DNA of 64,000 bases from contig JAHCKM010000002.1 of assembly GCA_026125795.1 (NCBI GenBank), forward strand, positions 248,001 through 312,000, given 5' to 3'. The position numbers and the translations under genes were made by a program. A model generated the notes under the pieces. That model had not been told where the DNA came from. It saw nothing but the letters and a program-made list of their open reading frames with translations, and did not search any database. This document shows, piece after piece, positions 54,752 to 64,000 of the stretch. The stretch's first letter is position 1. Each line of letters starts with the position of its first letter. The DNA is from Burkholderiaceae bacterium. GTDB taxonomy: Bacteria > Pseudomonadota > Gammaproteobacteria > Burkholderiales > Burkholderiaceae_C.

Positions 54752-55324
54752 ATGGAGACATCTCCTAACGTGACTAAGGGCGAGCAGGCCTTTGCCACCG
54801 ACGCCGCTCGGGCGTTGGAAACGGTCGTCGCAGATCTGAATAGCGCCGTCGAGCGGTTGCGCCGAGCACGGCCTGCAGGCAACGACGAGTTTGTCGAACA
54901 GCAAATGACGTCAGTGGTCGACCGCGCCGCCCGCTTGGCGACCTTGCTCGAGTGCGGCCAGCAGTCGCTCCGGCCCGATGTAGCGGGCAAGCAGGATTTC
55001 GCGGCCGACGCTGCCCGGGCATTGGAGACAGTTGTCGCGGACATGCGTAGCGCAGCCGAGCGCGTGCGCCAAGCACGACCGGCAGAAAACGACGATTTCG
55101 TCGAAGTCCAACTGAGGGCGATAGTCGCTGGTGCGGGCCAACTTGCGACCCAGTTGCTCGCGTACGCCGGCAAGCAGTCGCTCCAGCCCAAGCGACTGGC
55201 ACTGCTTCCGTTTTTGCGCGAGTTTGCGTTTCGGTTGCGTCAGGCCCTGGATCCGCGAATCGTTGTGTCGGTCGACCTCGCGCACGACTGCCCGGCCTGC
55301 AAGCCCCGAGCACGACCGATCTGA
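54752..55324 (+). CDS. Duplicated histidine-kinase-dimerisation-like protein
   Basis: 190 residues made of two copies of an about 69-residue unit (14-80 and 83-150), each starting FAxDAARALETVVAD and ending in KQSL-like QSLxP. The second copy continues LAYAGKQSLQPKRL, then LLPFLREFAFRLRQALDP, which resembles the end of the HisKA domain of hybrid kinases. The phosphoacceptor His and the ATPase domain are missing. The protein ends soon after the point where the kinase domain would begin. It may be a dimerisation fragment or a decayed kinase. Start codon choice is weakly supported. Confidence 0.6.
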   Translation: METSPNVTKGEQAFATDAARALETVVADLNSAVERLRRARPAGNDEFVEQQMTSVVDRAARLATLLECGQQSLRPDVAGKQDFAADAARALETVVADMRSAAERVRQARPAENDDFVEVQLRAIVAGAGQLATQLLAYAGKQSLQPKRLALLPFLREFAFRLRQALDPRIVVSVDLAHDCPACKPRARPI

Positions 55325-55471: not shown

Positions 55472-56152
55472 ATGCGCATCCTGCTCGCCGAAGACGAACG
55501 AGAACTTGCGAACTGGCTGGTTCGCGCGCTGCAGCAGAGCGGCTTCCAGGTCGACTGGGTCGACGACGGCCGCATGGTGCGGCGCTGCCTGAAGGCCACG
55601 CGCTACGACGCGCTGGTGCTCGACCTCGGCTTGCCGGGTGTCGGCGGCCACGACGTGCTGTCGGAGCTGCGCGAGGCCGACCAGCGCCTTCCGGTGCTGA
55701 TCCTGACCGCGCGCGACTCGCTCATCGAGCGGGTCAGCACGCTCAACGAAGGGGCCGACGACTTTCTCGCCAAGCCCTTCGAGCTGGCCGAGCTGGAGGC
55801 GCGGCTGACGGCGCTGATCCGGCGTGCGCGCGGCAGCGAGCACCCGCGGCTGGCCTGCGGGCCGCTGGTCTACGACCCGTCGAGCAAGCAGTTCACCCTC
55901 GGGCATGAGGCGCTGGTGCTGACGCCGCGCGAGCATGCGGTGCTGCGCGTGCTGGTCCAGCACAGCGGCGAGCCCTTGTCGAAGCAGGAGATCATCGAGC
56001 GCGTGTTCTCCGACGAGCGCGACGTGAACCCCGAGGCGGTCGAGGTGCTGGTGCACCGCCTGCGCAAGCGCCTGGGCCGCAGCGCGGTCCAGATCACGAC
56101 GCTGCGCGGCCTGGGCTACGTGCTCGAAAGCGGGCCCGAAGGCAGCCCTTGA
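55472..56152 (+). CDS. tctD: OmpR-family response regulator
   Basis: 226 residues. The receiver has RILLAEDERE at its start and the phospho-acceptor Asp51 in DALVLDLGLPG, with LILTARD and FLAKPFELAE giving the Thr and Lys. The C-terminal winged helix has EHAVLRVLVQHSGEP and VHRLRKRLGRSAVQI. It overlaps the sensor gene as TTGA and precedes tctCBA, the TctD/TctE/TctCBA arrangement known from tricarboxylate-uptake loci. It should activate the transporter genes, and direct repeats at 57592-57608 are a candidate site. Confidence 0.9.
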   Translation: MRILLAEDERELANWLVRALQQSGFQVDWVDDGRMVRRCLKATRYDALVLDLGLPGVGGHDVLSELREADQRLPVLILTARDSLIERVSTLNEGADDFLAKPFELAELEARLTALIRRARGSEHPRLACGPLVYDPSSKQFTLGHEALVLTPREHAVLRVLVQHSGEPLSKQEIIERVFSDERDVNPEAVEVLVHRLRKRLGRSAVQITTLRGLGYVLESGPEGSP

Positions 56153-57561
56153 AGCTCGAGAGCTGGCATGCGCTGAGCCTGCGCCGCACACTGCTGCTGG
56201 TGCTGTTTCCGGGGCTGCTGGTGGTGGTCGCCGCCGAGCTCTGGCTGACCTGGCGCACCGCCGTCGACGCCGCCAACGCGGCCTACGACCGCTCGCTGCT
56301 GGGGGCGATCAAGTCGATGGATGCCAACGTCTCCACCGCGAGCGGCGGTCTCGGCGTCGAGCTGCCCTACCGCATGCTCGAGTTCTTCGAGCTCACCGCC
56401 AGCGGCAGCGTCTACTACCGTGTCGCCACCGAGGACGGCCTGGTCGAGATCGGCAATGCTGACCTGCCGCCGCCGCCGCGGCCGCTGGTGACCGGGCAGC
56501 CGCAGTTCAGCGACGCGACCTACTTCGACGAGCCCGTGCGCGTCGGCTCCTACGCACGCACGCTCGAGCGGCCGCTGGGCGGCAATCCGGTGCCGCAGCG
56601 CCTCGTGATCCAGGTGGCCGAGACCCTGCAGTCGCGCCAGGCGTTCACGCAGGCGCTGGTCTGGCAGGCGATCGCGCGCGATCTGGTGCTGGTGGTTGCG
56701 GCCACCGGCCTGCTGGTCCTTGCCGTGGCTTGGGCGCTGCGACCGCTGGCGCGCCTGCGCAGCGAGGTGCTGGCCCGGCGCCCGCAAGACCAAGGCCCGA
56801 TCTCGCCGCAGGGCATTCCGGCCGACGTGCGGCCGCTGGTCGAGGCAATCAACCACCATGTCGAACGCAACCGCCTGCAGACCGAGGCGCGCCGGCGCTT
56901 CATCGACGACGCCTCGCATCAGCTGCGCACGCCGCTCACGACGCTGGCGACCCAGGTCGGCTTCGCGTTGCGCGAGACCGATGCGCGTGAGCAGCACCGG
57001 GCCCTGGTGGCGATCCAGTCGCAGCTCGACGAGGCGGTGCGCCAGGCGAACCAGATGCTGGCGCTGGCGCGCACCGAAACGGCCGAACTCGCTCCGGAAC
57101 CGGTCGACCTCGACGCGCTCGCGCAGGCGGTGACGCGCCAGTGGTGGCCCGAGGCGCGCAGCGCCGGCGTCGACCTCGGGCTGGAGTCGGCCGCCGGCGG
57201 TGCCTGGGTGCTGGCGCAGCCCGCGCTGCTGAAGGAGGCGCTGTCGAACCTGCTGCACAACGCCATCCGATATGCGGCGCGCGGCGGGCATGTGACGGTC
57301 AAGGTGGAAGCGGGCGAAACACGCGCCCGCATCGAAGTGGTCGACGACGGTCCGGGCATCCCGCCGGACGAACTGGCGCGCGCCGGCGAGCGCTTCTTCC
57401 GCGGCAGCAATGTGCAGCAGAGCGGCACGGGGCTGGGGCTGGCGATCGTCAAGTCGATCGCCGAGCGCCTGGACGGCGAACTGCAGCTGGCTGCGGGTCC
57501 CGGTGGGCGCGGGCTGAGTGCGGCGATCGACCTGCCCGCATTGCGCACGAACACGCCCTAG
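56149..57561 (+). CDS. tctE: Sensor histidine kinase
   Basis: 470 residues from TTG 56149 overlapping tctD. Two membrane segments (residues about 12-30 and 175-200) flank a periplasmic sensor. The H-box is FIDDASHQLRTPLTTLA, the N-box LSNLLHNAIRYAARGG, and the ATP lid VVDDGPGIPPDEL with GTGLGLAIVKSIA. All catalytic blocks are present. It should sense a carboxylate outside the cell and phosphorylate TctD. A TTG start is unusual, but the 4-base overlap supports it. Confidence 0.9.
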   Translation: MKLESWHALSLRRTLLLVLFPGLLVVVAAELWLTWRTAVDAANAAYDRSLLGAIKSMDANVSTASGGLGVELPYRMLEFFELTASGSVYYRVATEDGLVEIGNADLPPPPRPLVTGQPQFSDATYFDEPVRVGSYARTLERPLGGNPVPQRLVIQVAETLQSRQAFTQALVWQAIARDLVLVVAATGLLVLAVAWALRPLARLRSEVLARRPQDQGPISPQGIPADVRPLVEAINHHVERNRLQTEARRRFIDDASHQLRTPLTTLATQVGFALRETDAREQHRALVAIQSQLDEAVRQANQMLALARTETAELAPEPVDLDALAQAVTRQWWPEARSAGVDLGLESAAGGAWVLAQPALLKEALSNLLHNAIRYAARGGHVTVKVEAGETRARIEVVDDGPGIPPDELARAGERFFRGSNVQQSGTGLGLAIVKSIAERLDGELQLAAGPGGRGLSAAIDLPALRTNTP

Positions 57562-57591
57562 GGTTACCCCTTACCTTCCGCCGATTTTTCT

Positions 57592-57608
57592 GAAAGCGGC
57601 CCGAAAGC
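57592..57608 (+). promoter_or_regulatory. Direct repeats upstream of tctC
   Basis: GAAAGC occurs at 57592-57597 and 57603-57608 with an 11-bp period (CTGAAAG-like and CCGAAAG-like half-sites). OmpR-family response regulators often bind direct repeats of about one helical turn. They lie about 77-93 bases before the tctC start, so they are a candidate TctD site. The remainder of the gap, to 57684, shows no gene. Confidence 0.45.
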
Positions 57609-57684
57609 ACCCGTTCCATAGAGTGCCTCCATCCCTGCCGTAGCACGCCGCGGGGGCCGATCCTCAAACGATGGAGACACACTG

Positions 57685-58668
57685 ATGAAGCTCATTTCCC
57701 CCCTGCTGTCGCTCGCCCTGGCCTGCGCGGCCGCCACCGCATCGGCCGCCGGCCCGCTCGAGAAGAGCGAGTGCATCGCGCCGGCCAAGCCGGGAGGCGG
57801 TTTCGACCTGACCTGCAAGCTCGCGCAATCGGCGCTGATGGACGGCAAGTTCATCGCCGACCCGATGCGCGTGACCTACATGCCCGGCGGCATCGGCGCG
57901 GTGGCCTACAACGCCGTCGTCGCGCAGCGGCCGGCCGAGAACAACACCATCGTGGCCTTCTCGGGCGGTTCGCTGCTGAACCTCGCCCAGGGCAAGTTCG
58001 GCCGCTACAACGAGGCCGACGTGCGCTGGCTGGCCGCGATCGGTGCCGACTTCGGCGCCATCATCGTCAGCGACAGCTCGCCCTTCAAGTCGCTCAAGGA
58101 CGTGCTCGCCGCCGTGAAGGCCGATCCGACCAAGGTCGTGTTCGGCGCCGGTGGCACGGTGGGAAGCCAGGACTGGATGAAGGCGGCGCTGACCGCCAAG
58201 GCCGCCGGCCTGGACCCGAAGGCGATGCGCTTCGTCGCATTCGAGGGCGGCGGCGAGGCGATCACCGCGCTGCAGGGCGGCCATGTGCATGTTTACTCCG
58301 GCGACGCGTCGGAGGCCGTGCAGCAGCAGAAGGCCGGCTCGAAGATCCGCGTGCTCGCCGTGATGGCCGACAAGCGCCTGCCCGGCGACCTGTCGAGCAT
58401 CCCCACCGCCAAGGAGCAGGGTGTGGACATCGAGTGGCCGATCATCCGCGGCTTCTACATGGGCCCGAAGGTCAGCGACGCCGACTTCAAGGTCTGGAGC
58501 GACACCTTCAAGAAGATGATGGGCACGCCGGCCTACGACAAGCTGCGTGCCGAGCGCGGCCTGTTCCCGTTCGACCTGGTCGGCGCCGAAGCCGATGCCT
58601 ACATGAAGAAGCGCGTCGGCGAATACCGCAAGCTGGTGCAGGACTTCGGCCTGCCGGTCGCCAAGTAA
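57685..58668 (+). CDS. tctC: Tripartite tricarboxylate transporter receptor
   Basis: 327 residues with a signal peptide ending near ATASA. The mature protein has PGGGFDLTCKLA, the receptor carboxylate loop, and YMPGGIGAVAYNAVV; the far end is KRVGEYRKLVQDFGLP. It binds a tri- or dicarboxylate in the periplasm and passes it to TctAB. GGAG is placed nine bases upstream. It is the first transporter gene after tctDE and is followed by tctB and tctA on the same strand. Confidence 0.93.
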   Translation: MKLISPLLSLALACAAATASAAGPLEKSECIAPAKPGGGFDLTCKLAQSALMDGKFIADPMRVTYMPGGIGAVAYNAVVAQRPAENNTIVAFSGGSLLNLAQGKFGRYNEADVRWLAAIGADFGAIIVSDSSPFKSLKDVLAAVKADPTKVVFGAGGTVGSQDWMKAALTAKAAGLDPKAMRFVAFEGGGEAITALQGGHVHVYSGDASEAVQQQKAGSKIRVLAVMADKRLPGDLSSIPTAKEQGVDIEWPIIRGFYMGPKVSDADFKVWSDTFKKMMGTPAYDKLRAERGLFPFDLVGAEADAYMKKRVGEYRKLVQDFGLPVAK

Positions 58669-58755
58669 CGCGAGCTGCGTGACCCGCCGTGCCCGGCTGG
58701 CACGGCCGGGTGCCCCTTGCCGCGCGGGACGCGGCGCCAAGCGACGGAGACTCCC

Positions 58756-59202
58756 ATGAGTGATCGCATCCTCGGTGCGGTGTGCGTGGTCGCGGCCGCG
58801 GGCATGGCCTGGGCGGCGCAGAGCTACGCCCCGGCCATCTCGTACGAACCAGTGGGTCCGCGTGCCTTTCCGCGCCTGCTGGCCGGGCTGATGGCCATCG
58901 GCGGTGCCTGGCTGGTGATCCGGCCGAGGCTGGCCGGCCATGCCTTCCAGGCCGGCGCGCTCAAGCTGATCGGGCTGAGCGCGCTCACCGTCTTCGTCTA
59001 CGCCTTGCTGTTCCAGCTGCTCGGCTTCACGCTGGCCACCGCCTTGATGGCGGTGCCGGTGGGCATGGCCTTTGGCGGTACCTGGAAGCAGTCGCTGCTC
59101 GGTGGCGCGGGCCTGGGCCTGGGCCTGTTCCTGCTGTTCGACAAGGCGCTCGACGTGGTGCTGCCTACCGGGCTGTTGAGCTTCATCCTCGGAGGCCGCT
59201 AG
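58756..59202 (+). CDS. tctB: Tripartite tricarboxylate transporter small membrane subunit
   Basis: 148 residues from ATG 58756. It has four hydrophobic segments and the GPRAFPRLLAGLMAIGG segment of TctB. It pairs with the large TctA subunit in the inner membrane. GGAG lies seven bases upstream. A GC-rich repeat-like stretch separates it from tctA. Confidence 0.85.
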   Translation: MSDRILGAVCVVAAAGMAWAAQSYAPAISYEPVGPRAFPRLLAGLMAIGGAWLVIRPRLAGHAFQAGALKLIGLSALTVFVYALLFQLLGFTLATALMAVPVGMAFGGTWKQSLLGGAGLGLGLFLLFDKALDVVLPTGLLSFILGGR

Positions 59203-59210
59203 ATGAAACG

Positions 59211-59279
59211 CGCACGCTCTCTTCGTTCGCTGCCTCCCAAGGGGGCGTTCAGTACCTTCGGAACGGCCGGGCGGTACTG
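59211..59279. repeat. Repeat-like inverted element between tctB and tctA
   Basis: The gap contains TCGCTGCCTCCCAAGGGGGCG followed by CAGTAC (59250-59255) and its complement GTACTG (59274-59279). It shares GGGGGCGTTCAG with the insertion in the SulP gene. It resembles the short intergenic repeats common in Burkholderiales. In this place it could act as an mRNA stem that affects the tctB/tctA ratio. Confidence 0.55.
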
Positions 59280-59281
59280 AG

Positions 59282-60790
59282 ATGGAGACCCTCGAACACC
59301 TGGTCAGCGGCTTCGGGGTCGCACTGGCGCCGATGAACCTGCTGGTGGCCGCCTTGGGCGCATTTCTCGGCACCGTGGTCGGCATGCTGCCGGGCCTCGG
59401 GCCGATCAACGGCGTTGCGATCCTGATGCCGCTCGCCTTCGCGCTCAAGCTGCCGCCCGAGACGGCGCTGATCCTGCTCGCCGCGGTCTACGTCGGCTGC
59501 GAGTACGGCGGCCGCATCTCGTCGATCCTGCTCAACGTGCCGGGCGACGCCGGCGCGATCATGACCACGCTCGACGGTTATCCGATGGCACGCAAGGGCC
59601 TGGGCGGCGTGGCGCTGTCGATCTCGGCCTGGAGCTCGTTCATCGGCTCGATGGTCGCGACGGTCGGCATCGTGATGTTCGCGCCGCTGCTGGCGCGCTG
59701 GGCGCTCGCCTTCGGGCCGGCCGAGTACTTCGCGCTGATGTGCTTCGCCTTCGCCTGCATCGCCGGGCTGATGGGCGATGCGCCGATGAAAGCGGGTCTG
59801 GCGGCGGTGATCGGGCTGTCGCTGTCGACGGTGGGGCTGGACTCCAACTCGGGTGTCTACCGCTTCACCGGCGGCGACGTGCACCTGTCCGACGGCATCC
59901 AGTTCATCGTCGTCGTGATCGGCGTGTTCTCGATCAGCGAGATCCTGCTGATGCTCGAGCACCAGCACAGCAGCGCCGGGATGATCAAGGAGACCGGCCG
60001 CAAGCTGTTCAGCTGGGCCGAGCAGAAGCTCAGCTGGTGGCCGTCGCTGCGCTCGAGCGTGGTCGGCTTCGTGGTCGGCGTGCTGCCGGGTGCCGGCGCC
60101 ACGATCGCCAGCGCGATGACCTACTCGATGGAAAAGCGCCTGGCCGGTGCCGGCGGCACATTCGGCGCAGGCGACATCCGCGGCGTGGCCGCACCCGAGG
60201 CGGCAAACAACGCGTCGGCGGCCGGCTCCTTCGTGCCGATGCTCACGCTCGGCGTGCCGGGTTCGGGCACCACCGCGGTGATGGTGGGCGCGCTGGCGCT
60301 CTACAACATCACGCCGGGGCCGGCGTTGTTCACGCAGCAGCCGGTGCTGGTGTGGGGCCTGATCGCCTCGCTGTTCGTCGCCAACGTGATCCTGCTGGCG
60401 ATCAACATCCCGCTGGTGGGCGCCTTCATCAAGGTGCTGAGCGTGCCGAACTGGCTGCTGGTGCCCGGCATCCTGGCGGTCAGCACCGTCGGTGTGTATG
60501 CGGTGCATGCGACCACCTTCGACCTGATGCTGATGGCCGGCTTCGGCTTTGCCGGCTATCTGCTGCGCAAGCAGGGCGTGCCGATGGCGCCGCTGATCCT
60601 AGGCTTCGTGCTCGGCGACCTGATGGAGCAGAACCTGCGCCGCGCGCTGTCGATCACGAACGGCGAAATCGGCATCCTGTTCGAAAGCCCGATCTCGATC
60701 GGCCTGTGGATCGGCGCCGCGGCGATGGTGATCGTGCCGCCGCTGATGCGGGCGCTCGTGCGCCACAAACCGGCGGTCGCGCCCGCCTGA
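59282..60790 (+). CDS. tctA: Tripartite tricarboxylate transporter large membrane subunit
   Basis: 502 residues with about 12 hydrophobic segments. The conserved TctA loops are GTVVGMLPGLGPINGVAILMP near residues 35-55 and VVGVLPGAGATIASAMTYSMEKR near 260-282. It forms the carrier of the secondary transporter with TctB, coupled to the TctC receptor. Its stop is 15 bases before the ACL-like small gene, so uptake and the CoA-ligase-like enzyme are co-transcribed. Confidence 0.94.
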   Translation: METLEHLVSGFGVALAPMNLLVAALGAFLGTVVGMLPGLGPINGVAILMPLAFALKLPPETALILLAAVYVGCEYGGRISSILLNVPGDAGAIMTTLDGYPMARKGLGGVALSISAWSSFIGSMVATVGIVMFAPLLARWALAFGPAEYFALMCFAFACIAGLMGDAPMKAGLAAVIGLSLSTVGLDSNSGVYRFTGGDVHLSDGIQFIVVVIGVFSISEILLMLEHQHSSAGMIKETGRKLFSWAEQKLSWWPSLRSSVVGFVVGVLPGAGATIASAMTYSMEKRLAGAGGTFGAGDIRGVAAPEAANNASAAGSFVPMLTLGVPGSGTTAVMVGALALYNITPGPALFTQQPVLVWGLIASLFVANVILLAINIPLVGAFIKVLSVPNWLLVPGILAVSTVGVYAVHATTFDLMLMAGFGFAGYLLRKQGVPMAPLILGFVLGDLMEQNLRRALSITNGEIGILFESPISIGLWIGAAAMVIVPPLMRALVRHKPAVAPA

Positions 60791-60805
60791 ACCTGGAGAG
60801 ACGCG

Positions 60806-62086
60806 ATGCAACTCACCGGACTGCTGCATGGCGCGCCGCTGCTGCGGCATGTCGACTTCCCGACCGCCGAGGTGCTGGGCCCCGATGCCTCCGAAGACCA
60901 GATCGCCGAGCTGATCAAGCGCCACGGCCAGGTCTTCGTCAAGCCGCTGTTCAAGGGCGGCGTCGGCAAGAAGGGCAAGTCGGGCCTGATCGGCCGCGCC
61001 ACCGACCTGCGCGGCGCGCTGGCCGAGAAGGAGCGGCTCTACTTCGCCGAGCATCGCCACGGCAACGTGCGCGCCAAGGCCAACGGCGTCACCTTCGAGG
61101 GCGGCGTGCCGGCCGAGCACGAGGTCTACTTCTCGATCACCGACGACACGCGCTTTCGGGCGCCGACGATCACGATCACGCACCGCGGCGGCGTGGACAT
61201 CGAGGAGCTCGACAAGTCCGAGATCGTCACCGTGCCCTTCGATGCGCTGACCGGGCTGAAGGCCTTCGTCGTCGCCAACGCACTCGGCGACATCGGCGCG
61301 CCGCGCGAGATCGTCTCGCCGCTGGTGCAGCACCTGCCCAGGCTGTGGGAGCTGCTGCACCACTACGGCATGACGACGCTCGAGCTGAACCCGATCCGCA
61401 TGCGCCCGGACGGCAAGGGCCGGCTGACGCCGGTGGCCTGCGACTTCAAGTGCGGCTTCGACCGCGACGACCCGCGCGTCGCGCGGCTCGGCCTGCCGGC
61501 GCACCTGTTCGCGGCCGACGTCGGCGCCTTCGAGCAGGAGGTCAACGAGCTGCGCACGCACCAGGGCCAGTCGGACGTGTTCGTCATCAACGAGCGCGGT
61601 ACCATCCTCGCGCCGACCTTCGGCGGCGGCGCGAACAGCCTGGTCACCGAGGTGCTCGGCGAAGCGGCCAGCATCAGCTCCGACTTCGGCGGCAACCCGC
61701 CCTACGAAAAGATGAAGGAGGTGGCGCGCATCTGCTACCGCCACTTCCTGAAGCAGTCGAACGTGCTGTTCATCATCGGCGGCAAGTCGAACAACACCGA
61801 CATCCACGAAACCCTGCGCGCGATGGGCGACGCGCTGCGCGAGCATTTCTCCACCCAGGGTGCGACGCCGCTGTACGTGGTGGTCGGCCGCGGCGGGCCC
61901 AACCTGATCCGCGGTTTCGGCGCGCTCGCCGACACCTGCGATGCGCTCGGGCTGCCCTATCGCTTCTTCGGCTTCGACAGCGCGATCTCCGAGGTCGTCA
62001 ACTACGCCAAGAGGATCGACGACTGGATGAGGGCCGGTGGCCGCGAGGCCGTCGCACGCCGGCTCGGCCTGCAGGCCGGCGCCTGA
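60806..62086 (+). CDS. ATP-grasp CoA-ligase-type subunit resembling ATP-citrate lyase small subunit
   Basis: 426 residues from ATG 60806 with GGAGAG upstream. The N-terminal half is an ATP-grasp domain (QVFVKPLFKGGVGKKGKSGLI, then TTLELNPIRMRPDGKGRL). The C-terminal half resembles the citrate-binding domain of ATP-citrate lyase (ILAPTFGGGANSLVTEVLGE, then GGKSNNTDIHETLRAMGDAL). The length fits AclB-type subunits of about 400 residues. It should form an acyl-CoA from a tricarboxylate with ATP. The linkage to tctCBA suggests that the imported tricarboxylate is the substrate; citrate itself is not proven. Confidence 0.8.
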   Translation: MQLTGLLHGAPLLRHVDFPTAEVLGPDASEDQIAELIKRHGQVFVKPLFKGGVGKKGKSGLIGRATDLRGALAEKERLYFAEHRHGNVRAKANGVTFEGGVPAEHEVYFSITDDTRFRAPTITITHRGGVDIEELDKSEIVTVPFDALTGLKAFVVANALGDIGAPREIVSPLVQHLPRLWELLHHYGMTTLELNPIRMRPDGKGRLTPVACDFKCGFDRDDPRVARLGLPAHLFAADVGAFEQEVNELRTHQGQSDVFVINERGTILAPTFGGGANSLVTEVLGEAASISSDFGGNPPYEKMKEVARICYRHFLKQSNVLFIIGGKSNNTDIHETLRAMGDALREHFSTQGATPLYVVVGRGGPNLIRGFGALADTCDALGLPYRFFGFDSAISEVVNYAKRIDDWMRAGGREAVARRLGLQAGA

Positions 62087-62098
62087 GGAGGACCCACG

Positions 62099-64000
62099 AT
62101 GAATGCACAAGGCCTGCCCGGCTTCCCCTACTACCTCGGCGTCGACTCGCTGACCGAGCTGGCCAGCCGCGGCGACCGCGTCTGCGTGCTCAACATCCTG
62201 GGCGGCGAGTCGCGCCAGGTCACGCCGACCAGCCACGCCTTCTCGGGCGGCAACGTCGTCTTCGGCACCTCGCCGGGCCGCGGCGGCCAGAAGCTCAAGA
62301 CCAGCGTCGGCGACATCCCGGTGTTCAACAACGTGCGCGAAGGGCTGAACGCCGGCCATGCCTTCAACACCGGTGTGGTCTACCTGCCACCCTCCGGCGT
62401 GCGCGACGGCGTGGCCGAGCTCATCCGCGTCAACCCGGCTCTGAAGAAGATCGTCATCGTGACCGAGAAGATCGCGGTGCACGACGCACGCGAGATCCGC
62501 GCGATGGCGCAGGGCGCCGGCGTCGACATCATCGGAGGCAACTGCCTCGGCGTGGCGGATTCGTGGAGCCGGGTGCGCATCGGCGGTGCGCTCGGCGGCG
62601 ACCATCCGGAGGAGACCCTGATCCAGGGCACGGTGGCGATCTTCTCCAACTCGGGCGGCTTCACGACGACGATCGCGCAGTATCTGGCCACCGAGGGCTG
62701 GGGCACGACGACCCTGGTCTCGTCGGGCAAGGACGTGTACATCCACTACGCCGCACGCGACTTCGCGCATGCACTGCGCAACGACGGCCGCTCGCGCGCC
62801 GCGGTGCTGTACTGCGAGCCCGGCGGCTACTACGAGCGCGATGTCGACTGGGCCAAGCCGGTGGTGGCCTGCGTCGTCGGCCGCTGGAAGAGCAAGCTCA
62901 CCCGCGCCGTCGGCCACGCCGGCGCGATGGCCGGCAGCGGCGACAGCGCGCAGGACAAGGAGCGCTGGTTCATGCAGGCCTTCGGCGTGGACGCGATCTA
63001 CACGCCCGAGAACCCGGTGGTCTCGAAGAAGGGCGCGGTGGTCACCAACATCGCGCACATTCCGGCCGCGCTGACGGCGGTGCTGGCCGCCGGCGGCGCG
63101 AAGCCCGACTTCGCACCGCGCGGCAGCCTGACGCTCAAGCCGTGGATGGCCAACGACCAGGGCATCGAGCTGCCGGCCCAACTGGCGCGCAAGCCGGTGG
63201 CCGCGCCCGAGCCCTATGCCGCACAGCTGGCCGCGCTCGCGTCGCAGGTCGGCGCGGTGATCGCACGCCAGAACATGAAGGACCGCTCGGGCGCGTCGCA
63301 GATGGACCCGACGACGCAGGTCACCTCGGTGCACGGGCATTCGGTGCTCGAACTCGCGCTGCAGCCGCTGCAGGCCAACTTCGCCTTGCCGCTGGTGCAC
63401 GAAGGCGCCGGCCCGAACGACCGCGCGATGCTCGACATCGCGGTGGCCGCCGAGGTCAACCTGGTCGGCGATCCGGTCCTGGTGGCGGTGGATGCCGCGC
63501 GCCAGGCCGGCAACTCGCCGAACACGGTGATGGCTGCGGCCGCCGCGATCGTCGGGCCGAAGCGTGTGGAGCGGGCCCTGGCGTGCACGCGTGCGCTGAT
63601 CGACCTGTTCGCCGGCTCGGGGCTGCGCGAAGGGCATCACGTCGAGTTCGACCATTCGGGCATCCGCGCCGATGCGGCCACGCGCGCGCTGTTCATGGCG
63701 CGCGACGACGAGTCGGGCGACACCCACCCCGAGGCGATGCTCGAGGCGGTGAAGGCGCGCGGTGCGAAGTCGGTGTTCCTCGACTTCTTGCTGCGGCTCG
63801 ACGGCCGGCTCTCGCGCGACGCGATCCTGGCGGCGATCGCGACGACGATCGCCTGGGGCCCCTTGATGCGCAAGCGCATCAGCCGGCTCACCGCCGAAAC
63901 CCTGCCCTGGTATCTGCGCCTGTACGGCGTGATGGTCGGCGCGACGATTCCCGCCGAGCGCCACCAGTGGGGCATGCTCGCCGGCATCCCCCAGGCCGAA
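62099..64000 (+). CDS. SucD-like/citrate-synthase-like subunit resembling ATP-citrate lyase large subunit, 3' end outside window
   Basis: At least 634 residues from ATG 62099, preceded by GAGGAG, open to the end of the window. Residues 1-290 are a SucD-type CoA-ligase half: IFSNSGGFTTTIAQYLATEG, the Glu in LYCEPGGYYE (Glu240), and His273 in VGHAGAMAGSGDSAQ as the phosphohistidine. From about 390 the sequence looks like the citrate-synthase-like lyase half of ATP-citrate lyase, although its expected His region reads LPLVHEGAGPND and the late Asp lies in LRLDGRLSRDAI. The divergence leaves the acid specificity open. It forms a pair with the gene 12 bases upstream. Confidence 0.75.
   Translation, partial: MNAQGLPGFPYYLGVDSLTELASRGDRVCVLNILGGESRQVTPTSHAFSGGNVVFGTSPGRGGQKLKTSVGDIPVFNNVREGLNAGHAFNTGVVYLPPSGVRDGVAELIRVNPALKKIVIVTEKIAVHDAREIRAMAQGAGVDIIGGNCLGVADSWSRVRIGGALGGDHPEETLIQGTVAIFSNSGGFTTTIAQYLATEGWGTTTLVSSGKDVYIHYAARDFAHALRNDGRSRAAVLYCEPGGYYERDVDWAKPVVACVVGRWKSKLTRAVGHAGAMAGSGDSAQDKERWFMQAFGVDAIYTPENPVVSKKGAVVTNIAHIPAALTAVLAAGGAKPDFAPRGSLTLKPWMANDQGIELPAQLARKPVAAPEPYAAQLAALASQVGAVIARQNMKDRSGASQMDPTTQVTSVHGHSVLELALQPLQANFALPLVHEGAGPNDRAMLDIAVAAEVNLVGDPVLVAVDAARQAGNSPNTVMAAAAAIVGPKRVERALACTRALIDLFAGSGLREGHHVEFDHSGIRADAATRALFMARDDESGDTHPEAMLEAVKARGAKSVFLDFLLRLDGRLSRDAILAAIATTIAWGPLMRKRISRLTAETLPWYLRLYGVMVGATIPAERHQWGMLAGIPQAE

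Follow-up and report, generated by a model that had tools for sequence, protein, structure and literature searches.

A putative type II ATP-citrate-lyase-like enzyme encoded beside tricarboxylate sensing and import genes in a Burkholderiaceae bacterium

At the end of a 64,000-nucleotide stretch of DNA from a Burkholderiaceae bacterium (assembly GCA_026125795.1, contig JAHCKM010000002.1, positions 248,001 to 312,000; hereafter the window), seven genes on the + strand encode a two-component sensor, a tripartite tricarboxylate transporter and a two-subunit enzyme that resembles ATP-citrate lyase (ACL). Judging from sequence comparisons, we consider it fairly probable that this locus senses a citrate-like tricarboxylate outside the cell, imports it and cleaves it in the cytoplasm by means of a type II ACL-like enzyme. 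The small-subunit gene (60806..62086, 426 amino acids, Pfam ATP-grasp_2 and PF16114) follows tctA after 15 bases, and the large-subunit gene (62099..64000, Pfam CoA_binding and Succ_CoA_lig) follows the small one after 12 bases. The large gene is open at the window end and runs 810 bases beyond it, ending at position 9810 of L006, the 20-kb stretch around the pair; 634 of the 903 residues of its product fall inside the window. An earlier note, made from the sequence alone, had described tctDE, tctCBA and two CoA-ligase/lyase-type genes in one direction with gaps of 12-15 bases after tctA, with which the coordinates agree, and its view that an ACL-like pair is tied to tricarboxylate uptake is supported by domains, scores and neighbours.

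Domains and residues of the two subunits

The small subunit matched the Citrate_bind family (PF16114) with 50.4 bits against a cut-off of 26.8 and was the sole match to this family across the window genome, while Citrate_synth_N (PF24948) scored 32.6 bits, below its cut-off of 83. Among PDB sequences, the large subunit of Hydrogenobacter citryl-CoA synthetase (CCS; 6hxq_B) was nearest with 100.6 bits, followed by Methanothrix ACL (67.8), human ACLY (48.3) and succinyl-CoA synthetases (SCS; at most 35.8), and a profile built from 35 relatives left the ranking of CCS and ACL unchanged. The fold model (pLDDT 77.6) also had 6hxq_B as its top Foldseek match, with SCS chains close behind CCS and ACL, so the fold alone cannot tell a CCS-like protein from an SCS. 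In the alignment, the family motif NNT lies over ANNT of CCS and ANFT of ACLY and Methanothrix ACL, and RGGPN lies over RRGGPN of ACLY; on the basis of the ACLY structures, we take the residues of these motifs to contact citrate. The presumed citrate site, Asn329, Asn330, Thr331 and Arg362, was invariant in 85/85 small subunits, a count that leaves out the gene of one genome (G379), whose open reading frame (ORF) has merely 276 codons.

The large subunit is made up of a SucD-like ligase part (residues 1-345), a diverged middle (about 395-612) and a citrate-synthase-like end (about 612-903), which sits almost wholly beyond the window, as do all of the residues Asn672, His779 and Asp835 within it. 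In the PDB comparison of the 634 window residues, the SucD-like part scored 126.8 bits with the CCS small subunit, 92.4 with the best SCS and 47.7 with Chlorobium ACL, and its phosphohistidine, His273, was invariant in 89/89 large subunits. The C-terminal 569 residues gave no match to Pfam models or PDB sequences, so a profile comparison was required. The reference profile was built from the genome's citrate synthase, its two small citrate-synthase-like proteins, three further relatives and human ACLY; residues 612-903 scored 90.2 against it, with a maximum of 23.8 over 100 column shuffles. By this comparison, the C-terminal third is homologous to citrate synthase, citryl-CoA lyase and ACLY. 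In the profile alignment, Asn672 falls over the catalytic His of the lyases (ACLY His900), His779 over the GxGH histidine (His975) and Asp835 over the NVD position (Asp1026), three ACLY residues that we presume to be catalytic and whose human numbering was checked on PDB sequences. Each of the three family residues is invariant in 89/89 large subunits, and the canonical His900/His975/Asp1026 triad is not matched, as the first position is Asn.

The middle domain (395-612) scored 52.4 against the C-terminal domain, with a shuffle maximum of 26.9. Its score against citryl-CoA lyases was 25.3, equalled by 1/100 column shuffles (up to 25.7), and against lyases plus citrate synthase and ACLY it was 26.6, equalled by 0/100 (up to 22.3); because these lyase scores are weak, our view of its nature rests on the likeness to the C-terminal domain. 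As a reversal control, the C-terminal domain was compared with its own reversed alignment, which gave 41.1 (68.8% probability) over 28 columns, so scores near 40 that involve this domain may be artefacts; the middle domain scored 14.3 against the reversed C-terminal domain. With single ACLY, citrate synthase or CCL1 sequences the C-terminal domain gave weak results, and with CCL2 alone 65.3%. An AlphaFold model of one relative (L022; pLDDT 80, pTM 0.60) is mainly helical in both stretches and had CCS, ACL and SCS as top Foldseek matches, but since the Foldseek output has no ranges, the fold search does not prove a tandem arrangement. Taken together, the profile scores suggest that the middle part is likely a diverged tandem copy of the citrate-synthase-like domain, and the middle and the catalytic C-terminal domain would probably pair up as a built-in pseudo-dimer.

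These results agree with the earlier note on the ATP-grasp and citrate-binding-like parts of the small protein (PF16114 above cut-off, ATP-grasp_2) and on the SucD-like part with an intact His273. Its citrate-synthase-like end proved homologous, but the "lyase half" that is visible in the window is mainly the diverged middle domain. The note had also named two outcomes that would speak against it, and the data went the other way in both cases: the pair does not group with ordinary SCS (CCS 100.6 against SCS 35.8 bits for the small subunit, 126.8 against 92.4 for the large one), and the lyase half is not unrelated to citrate synthase, given the homology of the C-terminal third.

Sensor and importer genes in the window and around relatives

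The sensor genes encode a TctD-like OmpR-family response regulator (55472..56152, 226 amino acids; Pfam Response_reg and Trans_reg_C) and a TctE-like sensor histidine kinase (56149..57561, 470 amino acids, TTG start; Pfam 2CSK_N as sensor domain, HisKA and HATPase_c), and their reading frames overlap by 4 bases. The best NCBIfam model for the regulator was TctD (NF012023), with 257.5 bits against a cut-off of 337 that was not reached, so the name is kept as TctD-like. Next come TctC, the periplasmic substrate-binding protein of the transporter (57685..58668, 327 amino acids; PF03401, 69.6 bits), TctB, the small membrane subunit (58747..59202, 151 amino acids, with an alternative TTG start at 58717; PF07331, 72 bits), and TctA, the large membrane permease (59282..60790, 502 amino acids; PF01970, 500.6 bits). 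By Pfam, the three components of a tripartite tricarboxylate transporter are present together. After the large-subunit gene, the next non-overlapping ORF of at least 180 codons is on the opposite strand (L006, 9948-10553). Upstream of tctD, a 190-residue ORF (54752-55324, +) carries one segment of about 65 residues (AARALETVVAD...) in two nearly identical copies, spotted by eye.

A scan of contigs from 84,980 species matched 489 stretches, 471 of them encoding a relative (tblastn E <= 1e-3). A tblastn search of plasmids matched 125 records, 19 of them with a query coverage of 80% or more (Sinorhizobium, Gemmobacter, Polymorphobacter, Aminobacter, Microvirga, Caballeronia and Paraburkholderia), the remainder being mostly partial and SCS-like. 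We examined 89 loci, namely the best 80 of the 471 relatives, 8 plasmid loci and L006, and the sample leans to near relatives because the best 80 were taken. Three loci with an incomplete large gene (L079, L087, L090) were left out of the large-subunit tree and counts, and L018, with a stop in range, was left out of alignment A1. The spread is patchy, with 7/150 genomes in the window's family and 4/369 in the class, the window genome being counted both times. The small gene directly precedes the large one in 82/88 loci fetched, while the remaining 6 have the start of the large gene at most 555 bases from the contig end; wherever the sequence spans both genes, the pair is adjacent (82/82). As relatives of both genes sit side by side, the reading frames are not a product of chance.

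Annotation of these proteins varies. Seven plasmid records label the large subunit "CoA-binding protein" or "hypothetical protein"; for the small subunit they give "ATP-grasp domain-containing protein" or "ATP citrate lyase citrate-binding domain-containing protein". No NCBIfam model exceeded its cut-off for the pair (634 window residues of the large subunit), and a viral fold library gave no match at E <= 0.001. On the conjugative plasmid pUSP3 of Aminobacter sp. MSH1 (L007:15465-18210), the pair adjoins genes annotated as CBASS phospholipase and nucleotidyltransferase. On the contig of one metagenome-assembled genome (MAG; L090:10001-11122), the large gene stops after 374 codons even though the match goes on, which indicates a broken gene or an assembly error.

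Tricarboxylate genes recur around the pair. Neighbouring genes were called by tblastn at E <= 1e-10 and a query coverage of at least 60% (for the symporter, E <= 1e-15 and 50%); the queries were drawn from loci within the set, and each is therefore included in its own count. Among the 89 loci, TctA was found in 34, TctC in 32 and a kinase like that of the window in 31; the 4-oxalomesaconate-tautomerase family in 18 and a YciA-like thioesterase in 22; and tricarballylate dehydrogenase TcuA in 6 (five at 75-100%, one at 35%) and a citrate:cation symporter homologue in 5. A tricarboxylate transport or conversion gene was nearby in 48/89 loci, and in 46/74 among those of at least 12 kb. The 6.57-Mb window genome holds 6 TctA matches, therefore a random 20 kb would contain one about 2% of the time, a rough figure for this genome only. 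In five loci with a symporter homologue near the pair and no TctA scored (L009, L054, L077, L092, L095), the importer type varies and the enzyme stays. The fullest locus is that of Gemmobacter fulvus, which carries the pair, a thioesterase, TcuB, TcuA, GntR, the tautomerase, TctA, TctC, a regulator and a kinase; its TcuA, TcuB and tautomerase pass their NCBIfam cut-offs, while its thioesterase, with 138.4 bits, misses the YciA cut-off of 162.

Relation to type II ATP-citrate lyase and the reverse TCA cycle

The term type II ACL was reportedly coined by Hugler and Sievert in 2011. In PMC3522073, PMC6315080 and PMC6783814, the name is given to enzymes of tubeworm symbionts and Magnetococcus. Section 5 of PMC6315080 describes type II aclAB with korABCD and tfrAB in tubeworm symbionts and Thioflavicoccus mobilis, and the passage on Magnetococcus MC-1 in PMC6783814 calls its type II ACL "postulated", citrate cleavage having been detected in the organism. 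The gene layout of type II ACL, in which a small gene (ATP-grasp and citrate-binding) adjoins a large one (SucD-like and citrate-synthase-like), is also that of the window pair. The tubeworm primers acl2F1 and acl2R1 of PMC3522073 translate to VAKEEWF and NGFEAIA, and similar peptides occur at family residues of about 284 and 717, with NGFEAIA exact on the Aminobacter plasmid (L007) and AKEEWF in G477. In a primer scan of 96 loci, 42 of the 60 listed had their best sites 1282-1309 bases apart, yet with at least 7/43 mismatches in total. The window gene has an acl2R1 site with 3/21 mismatches at the matching place, its best acl2F1 match being elsewhere; G477 has a forward site with 2/22 mismatches, and the reverse primer is unmatched there.

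Three genomes (G264, G379, G477) encode large subunits 58.8-58.9% identical to that of the window over residues 11-903, all in one family (f117); like the window organism, they presumably belong to the class Gammaproteobacteria. Their stretches carry genes for a monomeric isocitrate dehydrogenase, aconitase, Fe-S and flavoprotein subunits (TfrBA-like, names borrowed from the cluster described in PMC6315080) and KorA/KorB-like proteins (Pfam for G477), L106 being without isocitrate dehydrogenase and L107 without Kor within the stretch covered. Homologues of KorAB, isocitrate dehydrogenase or aconitase were also found near the pair in L088, L090, L100 and L101, MAGs filed as Nitrosomonadales, Betaproteobacteria and Rhodospirillales, and a Pfam check of the L090 slice for isocitrate dehydrogenase gave no match. 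Since citrate cleavage is the step needed in the reverse tricarboxylic acid (TCA) cycle, such clusters with 59%-identical large subunits support it as the reaction of the pair.

In a tree of the 89 large subunits, made by a quick method with SH-aLRT support only and a midpoint root for drawing, seven reverse-TCA rows (L088, L094, L100, L101 and the three G rows) form one clade nested in a larger one of 24 rows, in which Tct-linked Microvirga is found as well. By reverse-TCA rows we mean those linked to, or grouping with, reverse-TCA clusters; the flank of L094 is too short to show neighbours. The window protein belongs to the other main clade, where it is surrounded by Burkholderiales and adjoins Tct-linked loci. 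Just four large-subunit columns are fixed differently between the reverse-TCA rows (7/7) and the others (at least 80/82), and no small-subunit columns are. In the same tree, the large subunit from a contig filed as Anaerolineae (Chloroflexota) is very near that of an alphaproteobacterial MAG (L072/L075; branches 0.019 and 0.038), probably through a binning error and not transfer.

The window pair fits within the postulated type II ACL family, the proteins from tubeworm symbionts, Thioflavicoccus and Magnetococcus being compared by description and primer sites only. As far as these comparisons reach, it is of the same family and not a new kind of ACL. The family is already known by name, is little-studied and has hitherto been linked to CO2 fixation; in the open-licence literature we found neither a link of the family to tricarboxylate uptake genes nor the probable tandem citrate-synthase-like module.

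Function of the locus and comparison with known systems

In the mechanism that we propose, the TctDE-like pair would sense a citrate-like tricarboxylate outside the cell, TctCBA would import it, and the small subunit would bind ATP and citrate. Phosphate would be relayed through His273 of the large subunit, leading by way of citryl phosphate to citryl-CoA, which the C-terminal citrate-synthase-like domain would split to yield acetyl-CoA and oxaloacetate. In that domain, His779 and Asp835 stand for ACLY His975 and Asp1026, and Asn672 for His900. The net reaction after import would be citrate + ATP + CoA to acetyl-CoA + oxaloacetate, and the genes may be co-transcribed and induced by citrate. 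That the enzyme works through a single-chain pseudo-dimer of citrate-synthase-like domains, with Asn in place of the catalytic His, as part of this wider joint proposal, is an idea we hold tentatively. As background, TcuAB yields cis-aconitate, from which citrate can form. Where a locus has the tautomerase besides TcuAB, both tricarballylate and trans-aconitate would end up as cis-aconitate, which aconitase would turn into citrate. We rejected tricarballylate as the window organism's own substrate, as its genome has no TcuA orthologue (best 32%), and for the same reason citrate would be the simplest substrate there; a tautomerase homologue (47%) lies about 0.3 Mb away. The benefit may be a supply of acetyl-CoA that bypasses decarboxylating steps, making the enzyme an ATP-driven counterpart of citrate lyase.

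Several points weigh against this proposal. An aerobe with a TCA cycle can oxidise citrate without such an enzyme, and the window genome has a citrate synthase gene. As TctC proteins bind varied carboxylates, the substrate cannot be read off from the importer. Of the tricarboxylate genes that were scored, none was found in 41/89 loci, or in 28/74 of those of at least 12 kb, three of these 28 (L088, L090, L100) carrying reverse-TCA genes, and some loci have ABC transporters, MFS or DctA. One of the three catalytic residues of citrate synthase is swapped, His for Asn672. A simple scan of L006 2500-10000 gave no promoters or terminators, by which an operon is neither supported nor excluded. Finally, the PMC papers themselves speak of type II ACL as "putative" or "postulated".

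The alternative with the most in its favour, to which we give a modest chance, is that the same chemistry acts on another substrate, a citrate analogue (e.g., 2-methylcitrate, homocitrate or hydroxycitrate) imported by TctCBA. A dedicated enzyme hints at this, as the ordinary TCA cycle already handles citrate, and so do the one lyase catalytic residue unlike that of citrate synthase and the neighbours that differ from locus to locus. However, the presumed citrate-site residues common to CCS and ACLY are retained, a citrate:cation symporter homologue (5/89) or TcuA (6/89) stands near some pairs, and few columns, none of them in the small subunit, separate the reverse-TCA rows from the rest. The earlier note had argued from differing lyase residues to another substrate; Asn672 is no argument for one, because the reverse-TCA rows share it (7/7, and 89/89 overall).

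It is unlikely that the pair is a ligase only, making citryl-CoA or another tricarboxyl-CoA with inactive lyase domains, and that a YciA-like thioesterase or other enzyme takes the next step. The Asn at the His900 position in all 89 proteins, the diverged middle domain and the thioesterase near the pair in 22/89 loci (the one in Gemmobacter being below the YciA cut-off) would fit such a role, but the partners of ACLY His975 and Asp1026 are as invariant as Asn672, the thioesterase query had no match in L006, and use in the reverse TCA cycle requires cleavage.

We regard as very unlikely a role of the pair in CO2 fixation by the reverse TCA cycle in a facultative autotroph, with the importer incidental. 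In the window genome, the large subunit of RuBisCO is encoded (782.6 bits against a cut-off of 438) with an adjoining CbbX (497.1 bits, cut-off 459; L122, G000:C4, about 812532-813455), as are two alpha subunits of 2-oxoacid:acceptor oxidoreductases that pass their cut-off, and bacteria with both RuBisCO and type II ACL are reported in section 5 of PMC6315080. By its gene content the organism may be a facultative autotroph, and the "heterotroph" of the earlier note is not supported. Against a role of the pair in CO2 fixation, the 20 kb of L006 gave no match to the Kor, Tfr, aconitase or monomeric isocitrate dehydrogenase queries, and the window protein and the seven reverse-TCA rows are in different main clades, its neighbours being Tct-linked Burkholderiales. 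The same genome encodes two small citrate-synthase-like (citryl-CoA-lyase-like) proteins (L110:1321-2121 and L111:1333-2160), with ORFs named by eye as dioxygenase-like and CoA-transferase-like beside the first and as a CitE-like lyase beside the second. An ordinary SCS with an unrelated C-terminal extension, to which the best NCBIfam matches (SCS models, 51.5 and 118.5 bits, the latter for the 634 window residues) and the small-subunit fold search might point, has next to no chance and was rejected on Pfam, NCBIfam and PDB scores: both matches are far under their cut-offs (370 and 336), PF16114 is above its own, CCS outscores SCS for both subunits, and the genome has a separate SucCD-like pair on C4 (30% and 25% identity).

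ACL genes are used to recognise the reverse TCA cycle, and a family with many members beside citrate or tricarballylate uptake genes would make this unreliable, above all where RuBisCO is present as well. If the wider joint proposal of sensing, import and cleavage holds, acl genes of this kind do not mark autotrophy, and a genome that combines RuBisCO with type II ACL, like that of the window, need not have two CO2-fixation pathways. The window genome is easily misread as having two, which the neighbouring genes make less likely. With a pair from a cultivable bacterium, the function of type II ACL could be tested directly, and the tandem citrate-synthase-like module, if true, would add a new element to how citrate synthase and ACL evolved.

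Among known systems, the window pair resembles type II ACL (tubeworm symbionts, Thioflavicoccus mobilis, Magnetococcus Mmc1_3638/3639) in its two adjacent genes, in peptides similar to those of the primers at matching places and in having 59%-identical large subunits in Acn/IDH/Kor/Tfr clusters like those described in section 5 of PMC6315080, but it is linked to tricarboxylate sensing and import and not to Kor/Tfr. With type I ACL (human ACLY, Chlorobium AclAB, Methanothrix ACL) it shares the set and order of the ATP-grasp, citrate-binding, SucD-like and citrate-synthase-like parts, the presumed citrate-site motifs and the His and Asp of the lyase site; it differs in an extra diverged domain (903 residues in the large subunit compared with 617 in 6hxj_B), in the Asn at the place of catalytic His900, and in that one type I large chain was among the matches listed, with 47.7 bits against 126.8 for CCS. 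For both ligase parts, the closest relatives of solved structure are those of Hydrogenobacter CcsAB (6hxq_A/B), but there the citryl-CoA lyase is separate, whereas the lyase of the window is fused to the SucD-like subunit. Salmonella citrate-utilisation loci with TctCBA and TctDE have a sensor, regulator and importer of the same kinds, and in place of the TCA cycle or the citrate lyase CitDEF, the window locus carries a putative CoA-dependent citrate-cleaving enzyme.

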